Positions 16,726-42,968 of a stretch of DNA of 50,522 nucleotides are shown here, piece by piece. The DNA lies in assembly GCA_015501055.1 (NCBI GenBank), contig JADNYV010000252.1, forward strand, positions 1 through 50,522, written 5' to 3'. Below the pieces are notes generated by a model. The model searched no databases and was not told the origin of the DNA. It saw only the letters and a list, made by a program, of their open reading frames with translations. The translations under genes were made by a program, and so were the position numbers. Each line of letters opens with the position of its first letter. Position 1 is the first letter of the stretch. Source of the DNA: Mucidula mucida. Its lineage: Eukaryota > Basidiomycota > Agaricomycetes > Agaricales > Physalacriaceae.

Positions 16726-17911
16726 TCACAGCCAAACCCTCTTGAATCTGAATGCGCTGACAATTTTGGTCCTTACACGTTTGCACTTCGCGCCTAATTG
16801 TGAAAAGCTGGATCTCACTGCACAACAGAGACTTCGGTCAGATGGATCTTGACAAAAGGCGAGGGTACGCACATGAGCCTTGGATTCTCCGATTCCAGGG
16901 ATATACTTCTTGCCCACAGTTGGCCCCAACAGGACGCGAAGCAGCAGCGCGCTGACGAGCTTTACAATCGTCGACAATCCTGAACGACGATGTAAGAGAC
17001 TCGTGTATATCTCAAGGTAGCATAGCACTCACTGCTTCAAAAGAGCATGCTCGTCCCACAATTCCACTGGATCTGACAGGACTTTGATAACGCCAAGATC
17101 AGAATTGAACTTGATAGCTGGCGTGAAAATCTTGCTCCACATCGGAGCATAAATGACGAAAAGAAGATGTTCTCGACAGCATCGATATCGTCGCCGAGCG
17201 AAGGCGCGTAGTCGCCGACACTCTCTATCGAATCTGAGTCTGACGTGTTCACCACAGGGTCTTGTACTTCGAGAGGACCGACAGAGCACTCCGCCTCCAT
17301 TATGTTTATATGTTTAACGTCTTCGCTGGTATAGCGGTGAATGGCTGAATCAGTAGCGGATGAAAAGTGTGGCGTATCCGAATATTCGTAGTTTTGTGGT
17401 TCTACCAAAACATCGAAGTCATCCATGGTGGGTTGATAGCAATTTGACCACGGTAAAGGATGTGATATGGGGAGAGGCGTGCGACCAAGAGGGTGGTCAG
17501 TTGTAGGTAGAATGGGAATGCACATATCGGCTGTCTTGCGCTTGAATTTGTCCATACGATTGGGACGTGGTTTCGTCAAGCCAATTTGGATGGGTCGTAG
17601 CCACATTCTGTTGAATACGGCGTCGGAATCAGGTAATCCCCCACTCCACTGCTCTAAGGTAAATGTGCTGTTGTCAAGGGTGTATACTGATAACGACGTA
17701 CTTGAGAACAGTAAGCAGCATATTGTTTGCAGACCAAATTCTGGATCAGCTCCTTGGCCACAGTATCTCCACCATGGCAGTAGTACCGCAAAGTTGCTGC
17801 GGGATCGATAGAAAACGCGATAAAGCATCCTGGCCAGGGAACATGAAGCATTCCTCGTTCGTCGTCGTCCTCGTCGTCATTTATCAAGGACATGAATTCG
17901 AAGCCAGACAT
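16726..17911 (-). pseudogene. Family A copy 3 (A3), one-base deletion, partner of B1
   Basis: Unrecognised family A, transcribed leftward and divergent from B1. Exons (reverse): 17911-17702, 17648-17033, 16979-16873 and 16817-16726, with all splice sites as in A5/A6. The N-terminus has an acidic run (DDEDDDE) before the HVPWPG and SIDPAATLRYYCHGGD core, and Trp26 is present. A one-base deletion at about 17146-17156, inside the conserved SSVNAPMW segment, shifts the frame in exon 2, so the last third of exon 2 and the basic tail are out of frame. The same deletion is present in A4. The last exon would end FRFKRVWL. The shared lesion points to duplication or gene conversion between the two copies. 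Confidence 0.76.
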
Positions 17912-18293
17912 GTTGAAGGTTTACGGGGGTACAAGTCTGTATAGAACGCGCTTTATAAGGTGGAGCCACATTTACTTGTATTGTTCCCAGAACAGACAAT
18001 AGAATGACAGAAAACAAGGACGGCAGGAACAAAAAAACACTCGAGCCATCGGGCCGACTTTCCGATCTGTATCAGAAATAGATCAGCGTCCGCTCTTGTT
18101 GTTCACCAACCTTCAAGGAACTTCCCGGACGCAGCCACACAATAAACCAGAAAGCTGTGGCCATTCGTTTGTTGTTATCAATGGAGCACAAAGCAAGGAC
18201 GATCGTTCACTGGGTGTATAAATCTACCAGTCGAAGCTTGTTGCTCCAGAATACACCAACCTTCACCGACCCAACCACCGAACTCACCACACC
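17912..18293. promoter_or_regulatory. Bidirectional promoter region A3/B1
   Basis: This 382 bp separates two divergent start codons. On the A side (reverse) are TATAA near 17952-17958, TGTGGCTCCACC and the ATTGTCTG/GGGAACAATAC box. In the middle is CATCGGGCCGACTTTCCGATC (18048-18068). On the B side are CCAGAAAGCTGTGGCCATTCGTTT (about 18148-18171) and a TATAAAT box at about 18217. All these blocks recur in the A4/B3 and A5/B2 spacers in the same order. Confidence 0.68.
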
Positions 18294-40559: not shown

Positions 40560-40760
40560 TAGCATACCGCCATCGTAACTACCATAGTATGCATTTGGAA
40601 CGTGCTCAGTACCCGGGAACATGACTGTCTTGAAGCGGAGAAGGTAAGCTCCTCGAGAGGACCTCGACTACTGCGATGCTAACAATTGATTGTTCAATCA
40701 AATCCACTTCAATCACATAGCTTCAGTTTTACAAGTCGTACAATGCCATCTTGTTTTGGT
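40560..40760 (+). repeat. Segment C remnant (C3) abutting the DAHP synthase 3' end
   Basis: Downstream of A6 the sequence again matches the C region: GTGCTCAGTACCCGGGAACATGACTGTCTTG, the GGAGAAG/GTAAGC donor (about 40640), ACAATTGATTGTTCAATCAAATCCACTTCAA (also at 19800-19835 reverse, near C1) and CAATGCCATCTT. The match fades at about 40755-40765, exactly at the stop codon of the DAHP synthase gene (40761-40763), so the block boundary lies there. No C core is present. Confidence 0.6.
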
Positions 40761-42968
40761 TCAAAGTCCCCGCCCGCCAAGCTCGGAGTAGAGCACATCC
40801 CTTTCTCCCCCCTTACTTCCTTTTCGCTCTTTCTTGAAATGATTCGACAGCAGGAACGCTACATCTGCAAATCGACGGTGTTAGGAAACTAGCTGTAAGG
40901 AAATTGAGGACATACCAAGGCTTTGCTCGAAATTCAATCGGGGGTCACAGAAAGACTGTGAACAACGTTTGAGATTGGCCGCTGAAAAAGTAAGAGCAGA
41001 GAACGTACCTGATATCGTAAACCGAGCTGCTCTTCGCTGAGCTCCATGCTACCTCCCAGGCATTCTGTGACGCTAAAACCCTCGTCATTAAGTTCGCCAG
41101 TGAATTCTAGGCTGATGCCTCCAAGGCGACTGCCAGTCTCGGTATGGATGCGCAGACAAGAGGTAATTTCGCCGATGATAGCACTGAAATGACGTGTCTT
41201 GTAGCCCGTCGAGGATGTCAACGTACTGAGAAAGTTTGAGCAAACCCATCAAATGGGACCGGCGAAGCGACAGACTTTCCATGCATTGGATCACAGATCC
41301 AGATTACAGGATGCTGTGACTTTTGAACAGCCTCGATATGTCCGGCCAAATGAATGTCGATCTACGTGCGAAATCTCAGCACGCGAACAAATCGATGAAA
41401 ACAGCAGGATAACCTTATCCGCGCCATATCTCGTAATGAGAGTAATTCTCCCGATGTCCTTGGACGGATTTACAACTAGAAGGTCATTTAAGACGATCCT
41501 GGCCACACACGCGCAATATGAATGAACGTACTGTCAAGCAATCTGACCAACTCATCCTTCGCCATGGAGGGGCCAACTTTGATTCCTATGGGATTCCGGA
41601 TGCCGCGGAAATATTCCACATGGGCGCCGCCGATTTGCCTTGTACGGTCTCCAATCCAGAGGAAGTGCGCGGATGTGTTGTAGTAGTCGGACGAAGACCC
41701 CCGCGTGAGGGCTTCTTCATAGTCCAGCATGAGGCCCTCATGACTGCGAACGATGAGAACCAGAGGATCATTCACGAGAAGGGGAGCACCTAGTGTAAAG
41801 ATCCACTTCTCCTAGAGTTCCCCGTCCGCCGCCGCGCTCGTAAGGCGCAGATGTCTCAGCGCCAATGGTCCGACTGAAGTCTAACGCGTCGGATAACCCC
41901 TCGACTATGGTTTCGAATTCTTTTCTGTTGCATGCGGGATATCCTCAGAACGTGTAAGGGAATGCAATAGAAGATTTTGACCTGAGGGACGGAGAGCGAA
42001 CGTGGCTAAGTGACCAATCTCTAGGAGAATGCAAAGAGGCGAAGCCAGACGTCAAGAGGCCGCGGACGTGATTGAGGGTGGCGGTTGAGTGGAAGTACGC
42101 ACTGGCACAGCGTTCAAACTCGACCAGGCGAATGAAGTGAAATTTACCTGAGAAGGCGCTGGGGATCAGGTGTGCGATCATTGGGATCCAGCCTGCAAAA
42201 GGATTAAGGTGCCGAGACAGCTGTTGGTCGGGCTCCTCGTACCCGTTAACGTTGTCCCCTCTGCCACGGTGATCGTCAATAGAGCAAGTATAGTGAAGGG
42301 ATGCCTCATTACCTGAAGCTGAGCACTTGCTTGCCACCTATCGTCTCATGGGTACTGCTCCTGGGCTTCGCATACTGTCCTGCAATCCTGCCAATACGAA
42401 CCTGGAGAGTTGCGTTCAAATTGAGACAGCAGACACTGAAGCGACATACAACGGGCAAACGTGCACCCCAAATCAAGACGAGCGAGAACGAGAGGATAAG
42501 CCCGATCTTTGCAGAGATATTTTGCTGTTGTTGAGAATTTTGTCATAAGGGAAGTACGACTCTGGAGAAGCTCATCACGTACGTTAGTACAGGCATCGAA
42601 GCTCTCTGCACAGTCGCCAGCGTGTAATAAGAAAGCCTCATTGCGTTGAACGAGGCCGAGCTGGTAACAAAGTCTTTCGATCTACCGAGATTTGAGGGTT
42701 TGAGGCAACGTGTAAACAAGCATACTGACTTCGGAGGGTGTAACCAGTGGTGGGAGCGTTGCTAATTTGGAAAGGACACTAGGAAAACCAAGATCAACAC
42801 GCCGTCTCTGTCTAATGAAAGCTGCGGACCCAGCTAGCTTGTTTGGCTCAGGATACTGGACGTCCTGACGCGAAGAATCATGAGGAGCAGAACGCGAAAG
42901 TGTGACTTAGACTCAACCTGCGCGATCGGTTTTGATTTCCAGGACGACGGGGTCCAATCGGAGGCCAT
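40761..42968 (-). CDS. Class II 3-deoxy-D-arabino-heptulosonate 7-phosphate synthase
   Basis: Predicted 477-residue plant/microbial class II DAHP synthase, which condenses phosphoenolpyruvate and erythrose 4-phosphate in the first step of the shikimate pathway. Sixteen exons (reverse): 42968-42918, 42864-42830, 42778-42730, 42681-42583, 42524-42453, 42401-42313, 42260-42243, 42192-42148, 42101-41982, 41924-41790, 41743-41532, 41475-41414, 41361-41276, 41225-41009, 40955-40916 and 40864-40761; all phases agree. The start MASDWTPSSWKSKPIAQ, HAGDCAESFDAC (metal-binding Cys at about 69), RIGRIAGQYAKPRSS, RGDNVNG, HEGLMLDYEEALTR, RGIRNPIGIKVGPSM, TLITRYGADK, WICDPMHGNT and ELSEEQLGLRYQ are all family signatures. 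Odd points: QIGGAHVE at about 274-281 has Gly where Asp is usual, and the GTTGTA donor of exon 5 is unusual. Confidence 0.94.

Follow-up and report, generated by a model that had tools for sequence, protein, structure and literature searches.

What are the two gene families that lie head to head three times along a single contig of the wood-rotting mushroom Mucidula mucida (Physalacriaceae), and what is it that keeps them together? The contig, JADNYV010000252.1 (C219), was analysed over its full 50,522 nucleotides and is referred to here as the window; it belongs to a 59.9 Mb assembly, and the species was sequenced under the name Oudemansiella mucida CBS 558.79 (PMC8480192). The two families, termed A and B (Table 1), are real and are neither ordinary nor a transposon: they form an ancient divergent gene pair with named matches in two genera. 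Our tentative proposal, held at somewhat less than even confidence, is that they constitute a nuclear toxin–antitoxin-like module, in which B would be an RNA toxin of the MazF/PemK fold and A its dedicated partner or antidote.

That A and B are real spliced genes, as an earlier note on the window had claimed, is confirmed by spliced, protein-guided models; both families are also under purifying selection, as described below. In the window, A was modelled for five copies (A1, A2, A3, A5 and A6), each of which has four exons and introns that fall at corresponding residues in phases 0, 2 and 1; B1 and B2 likewise have four exons, and their intron positions agree within two residues. The equality of intron positions and phases reported previously is true of the modelled A copies and, within two residues, of the positions in B, but fails for the second B intron, which is in phase 1 in the B1 model and phase 0 in the B2 model. 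The three head-to-head pairs with a conserved spacer are borne out, the spacers measuring 341–382 bp in the window (with the starts of A4 and B3 placed by analogy).

When A and B were searched for in the assembly, at least 25 copies of A and at least 15 of B were found on C219, C305, C229, C224, C360, C591 and C438, counts that are lower bounds and from which a weak B-like match on C83 (E 0.08) was left out. Fifteen A copies are free of frameshifts and stops (one of them, at C229 15120, has an altered C-terminus), eight are broken and two have no model (C591, C438); for B the corresponding numbers are eight, five and two (C224, C591). The claim that most copies are dead therefore describes the window, where five of nine are broken (A1 and A3 by a frameshift, A2 by a stop, A4 by an insertion, and B3) and A5, A6, B1 and B2 are intact, but not the genome, given these counts and the selection acting on both families.

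An A gene faces B in 13 of the 14 testable copies (C219 3/3, C305 4/4, C229 4/5, C360 1/1, C591 1/1), the fifteenth B lying at the end of C224; one of the four C305 copies is without its 5' part. This is the type II toxin–antitoxin arrangement of a toxin-like gene beside a dedicated partner gene. Spacers were measured in 11 of the 13 pairs and span 315–397 bp, with a few ends placed by analogy. These pairs do not amount to 13 independent events, because C591 repeats the pair of C360 with near-identical scores (it is probably a duplicate contig or an allele) and several others are tandem or allelic. The protein search for relatives relied on shared 5-mers and returned named matches from M. mucida and Hymenopellis radicata only; in the latter, where contigs were matched by their length, all five named B proteins share a contig with an A, and six of the eight named A proteins share one with a B. 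As to the worry, raised in the earlier note, that the two families might prove to lie mostly apart elsewhere, B is found paired in the Mucidula genome and, by contig, in Hymenopellis, while A is often alone.

The age of the association can be judged from a far diverged A-like family, A', found by searching the assembly with A. The two share the core PILP..HPL.R....PLPW..C..PT, in which they are ~30% identical, and the first intron position, and a profile comparison between them gives E 7.9e-8. A' faces a gene that we term B' in C195 and C827, with spacers of 556 and 555 bp, and in C109 what remains of a B' faces A'. From the shared head-to-head orientation and the retained first intron of A, the pairing is ancient. 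The Hymenopellis co-occurrence and the A'/B' family give independent support for the pairing. There are 11 A' loci (L058–L068), several broken or fragmentary and eight of them without B', together with two intact B' genes and the remnant; one A' locus adjoins a transposase-like open reading frame (ORF; L058 4713–5501, read by eye). With both families pooled, a partner is lacking for one of 17 B or B' genes and for 20 of 36 A or A' genes, one of the latter lying at the end of a contig.

Median pairwise ratios of non-synonymous to synonymous divergence (dN/dS) are 0.21 for A (102 pairs among the 15 models free of frameshifts and stops) and 0.27 for B (24 pairs among eight such models). By region the ratio in A is 0.10 in the core (71–160) and in the tail (226–283), 0.25 in exon 1, 0.29 in the acidic part and 0.43 in exons 3–4; in B it is 0.16 in the core (46–120), 0.18 in 1–45, 0.52 in 121–178 and 0.25 in exons 2–4. 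These values indicate that A and B are both under purifying selection, which favours a function that is maintained over a rapid arms race. Distances among A genes and among their B partners correlate over 11 pairs (r 0.88, reached in 0 of 5,000 permutations) and over the nine pairs of subfamily I (r 0.64, reached in 10 of 5,000), although part of this correlation is due to linked duplication. Nine of the 11 pairs came from Mucidula, some of them including a broken copy, and two from Hymenopellis, where partners were assigned by contig; the set excluded A4/B3, two C305 pairs whose B is damaged, C591 and the Hymenopellis contig that carries several copies of both families. The suggestion made earlier, that fixed pairing means products that act together, is supported by this correlation, by the near-constant pairing of B and by the recurrence of the layout in A'/B'.

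A possible activity is suggested by the predicted fold of the B superfamily. Its solo member, B'', lies at L066:1840–2655 (P0032) with a second copy on C537, the two places scoring equally and probably being alleles, and is also represented in Hymenopellis (P0033) and by P0035; it is joined to B' by BLAST (E 1e-10). The superfamily has a predicted MazF-like fold, modelled on B'' and extended to B by homology. Among 17 B members R98-P99 occurs in at least 90% and T125-F126 in all, and when the B profile is aligned with PemK (usable frame from 21 of 30 loci, plus 13 MazF) the RP motifs coincide. B resembles the MazF/PemK(Kid)/CcdB superfamily (PF02452 and relatives; MazEF, PemIK, CcdAB) in the fold predicted for the B superfamily, its adjoining partner gene, the order of its motifs (GxIxxV strand, RP strand, C-terminal helix) and the RP arginine.

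The fate of A and B units can be followed between haplotypes. Window DNA from 28000 to 32000 occurs exactly twice, on C219 and C305, and in 250-bp steps the DNA flanking the cluster shows mostly 99–100% identity (minimum 97%), from which the two contigs are taken to be allelic; the haplotypes are mostly near-identical outside the cluster, but their unit content differs. Identity is 75–86% over B2/A5 (~36500 to 38900) and 97–98% over A6, with a dip to 88–91%, and next to its A6 allele C305 retains a B whose 5' part differs. The simplest reading is of an ancestor with two units, B2/A5 and B6/A6, from which the window haplotype would have lost B6, leaving an orphan A6, while in the other a recombination of B2 with B6 would have removed A5 and left A6 next to a hybrid B. 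C305 has in addition one extra A/B unit adjoining the window's A3/B1. C224 is without C229 8121–9709, which holds one B and no A, so that two A genes are left facing each other, and also without ~13.2–16.2 kb of C229, a whole A/B pair. Of five inter-haplotype unit differences in all, two affect B by itself and three affect A and B together; no clear case affects only A, which is the pattern expected of a harmless or protective A beside a B that is neither. Unequal recombination appears to account for the gain and loss of tandem units.

Between these units lies segment C, which from its placement is best described as the spacer separating tandem B–A–C units, B and A being divergent. It follows A4, A5 and A6, as had been noted, but it is not confined to A, being found also behind B2, and it recurs between units on C305 and C229; its candidacy as a third gene was set aside, since it behaves as an inter-unit spacer. 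The A3/B1/A4 segment at 16856–20849 is 96.4% identical to C229 12189–16182, in a different A/B cluster, a likeness that points to a recent exchange between the two loci or a recent duplication.

In the mechanism that we propose, B would be a nuclear-encoded protein that acts on RNA through its predicted MazF/PemK RNA-toxin fold, its RP arginine (and perhaps its TF threonine) taking the role of Arg25 (and Thr48) of Bacillus MazF. A would bind and neutralise B, and the shared 0.3–0.4 kb spacer, which in B2/A5 is likely a bidirectional promoter, would keep the two doses matched. The asymmetry of orphans, the shared spacer and the finding that in no clear case was A lost by itself fit a toxin–antidote relation. 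The 'conflict-type gene pair' of the earlier note thereby gains a concrete form from the predicted fold, although the toxic action of B is something that we infer.

A number of results weigh against this proposal. The MazF-like fold was modelled on B'' and not on the window's own B, for which a full-length model from a shallow alignment was discarded (predicted local distance difference test score 35.8), and a Foldseek search with the B'' model gave no match at E 0.001 or better, with a ribosomal protein in row 4. Between B and B'' the profile E is 5e-4 over 118 columns but the probability 31%, and BLAST gives E 0.05; B and B' compared directly are weakly alike (P 0.068). Searches of B against Pfam, NCBIfam and PDB sequences returned nothing over threshold. 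PF02452 (PemK) matched three of 17 B members, all below its curated cut-off of 23.1 bits (P0007 13.6 bits, E 0.079; P0003 12.9 bits, E 0.13), so that B cannot be assigned to that family; lower E values were reached in single B members by Pilus_CpaD (0.0047) and DUF7362 (0.0096), and a search for the PemK family over the whole genome gave 0 matches. The B profile scored a weak 22.5 against the PemK alignment (P 0.004; best of 100 column shuffles 21.9), and there the TF motif of B is aligned to a gap while the MazF Thr strand stands opposite the next strand of B'', so that equivalence of the threonine follows from motif order only. An E. coli-type MazF alignment used alone gave a short, misregistered match (P 0.034) and was rejected, the broader PemK set having done better. 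For A, no antitoxin family appears among the Pfam matches to E 10 for 16 members (best of any family E 0.11), and profile comparison finds no measurable similarity to PemK or to B; A as a second MazF-like protein, prompted by a motif order alike by eye, was rejected at a profile score of 16.7 against up to 23.6 in 60 shuffles. The sole unpaired B (C229 32278–33368) has no A remnant within the next 3.1 kb. Upstream of B'', 1.8 kb read by eye contain nothing resembling an A ORF, and the A and A' searches have no match on C82/C537, so that partnership is not universal in the B superfamily. Differences of whole A/B units between C224 and C229, and between C305 and the window, mean that loss is not confined to B. 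Finally, the low dN/dS would fit an ordinary function too.

It is such a function that provides the most serious rival, in which A and B together make up an ordinary complex without toxicity, such as a heteromer that binds RNA or has a regulatory role and uses a recruited MazF-like barrel, the bidirectional pair being retained for the sake of stoichiometry. We regard this as possible if rather doubtful: purifying selection on both families, correlated partner distances and the ancient A'/B' pairing all agree with it, but copy-number variation between haplotypes, with many orphan A and few orphan B, is unsuited to a fixed stoichiometry. Even with a non-toxic B, a protein superfamily that had no annotation is identified here, one whose predicted fold can be recognised and whose partner is ancient and near-constant.

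Toxin–antitoxin modules are a hallmark of bacteria, and the proposed toxin–antidote pair departs from its bacterial counterparts in several ways. Unlike MazF/PemK/CcdB systems, A/B is eukaryotic and nuclear, spliced, and head to head instead of in an operon; the B'' model has a helical insert and B a Ser-rich tail, B falls below the Pfam cut-off, the catalytic Thr is uncertain, and A shows none of the known antitoxin domains (MazE, PemI or CcdA) of the partners in MazEF, PemIK and CcdAB. In ToxN-type (type III) systems the antitoxin is an RNA, whereas the partner of B is a protein-coding gene. Among the literature matches listed (open-licence PMC only) there was no fungal MazF/PemK pair. If the proposal is true, A/B would be a new eukaryotic version of toxin–antitoxin, spliced, nuclear and tandem-arrayed, with a MazF-like member and a novel antidote family.

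A/B may play a part in nuclear conflict or drive, and would then be a molecular candidate for such processes in dikaryotic fungi. In the specific form of a divergent MazF-type toxin–antidote pair that is expanded in tandem, differs in unit content between the nuclei of the dikaryon and drives its own transmission or polices the pairing of nuclei, we consider such a role unlikely; a nucleus that lost A while B persisted in the shared cytoplasm would be disabled. Likened by description, killer meiotic drivers and toxin–antidote loci (wtf, Spok, nematode pairs) share with the proposed A/B a linked poison and antidote, multiple copies and haplotype copy-number variation, but unlike them A/B evolves under purifying selection. 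Basidiomycete HD1/HD2 mating-type pairs also resemble A/B in being divergent and present in several copies; they were rejected as its identity, there being no Pfam match to a homeodomain in A or B.

Defence against viruses or mobile elements, with B cutting RNA upon infection once A lets go, as in bacterial abortive-infection toxin–antitoxin systems, is quite unlikely, given a median dN/dS well under 1, no link to mycoviruses, and a PADLOC search that gave only two single-member weak matches (E 0.012 and 0.044), neither of toxin–antitoxin type. That A and B are functionally unrelated, and neighbours only because an ancestral segment was duplicated in tandem, would suit the many pairs that are tandem or allelic copies, but is made improbable by A'/B', a separate and far diverged pair with the same layout, and by constraint on both families. 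A transposable element or cargo spreading as a unit, akin to the 'dispersing element' of the earlier note, could account for multiple copies and for a 4-kb A/B/A segment of 96% identity at two loci, yet was rejected as very improbable because neither A nor B has a Pfam match to a transposase, reverse transcriptase or other mobility domain, and the clusters are few, tandem and at allelic positions with colinear flanks, their changes being gains and losses of units that resemble unequal recombination.

Table 1. Features of the A/B locus in the window; spacers are given from ATG to ATG.
Feature	Position	Strand	Description
A1	2847..4006	+	A copy of a divergent subfamily (P0027-like), one frameshift, without B; spliced model
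A2	5133..6319	+	A copy, one stop in exon 1, without B; spliced model
A3	16726..17911	-	A copy, one frameshift in exon 2; spliced model
A3/B1 spacer	17912..18293		382 bp
B1	18294..19402	+	Intact B, 4 exons, partner of A3; spliced model
Segment C	19558..19952	-	Behind A4, before B1
A4	19990..22740	-	A copy interrupted by insertion 20852-22402; outer limits approximate
Fold-back insertion in A4	20852..22402		1551 bp, CACTG...CAGTG ends, 3-bp target duplication
A4/B3 spacer	22741..23107		367 bp, ends by analogy
B3	23108..23660	+	Dead B, several frameshifts, partner of A4
Segment C	35689..35847	+	Behind B2; possibly trailing end of a lost neighbouring unit
B2	36128..37220	-	Intact B, 4 exons, partner of A5; spliced model
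B2 exon 1			Predicted MazF/PemK-like core; fold transferred from homologue B''
B2/A5 spacer	37221..37561		341 bp
A5	37562..38748	+	Intact, 4 exons, introns 37772-37818, 38445-38497, 38602-38653; no frameshift or stop in spliced model
Segment C	38803..39175	+	Behind A5
A6	39353..40513	+	Intact A without B; spliced model
Segment C, partial	40554..40661	+	Behind A6

The clear mobile element at the locus is the insertion in A4, a fold-back element with 598-nt arms which, from its ends, we take to be CACTA-like; the C305 allele is empty at this site, and genome-wide the element gave 34 candidate stretches and 243 matches. Remains of a retrotransposon integrase and chromodomain are found at 612–1737 (ORFs read by eye). 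The two A/B clusters of the window are separated by ordinary genes at 27940–34672, where frames resemble, by eye, a mitochondrial release factor and a CSC1/OSCA-type channel.

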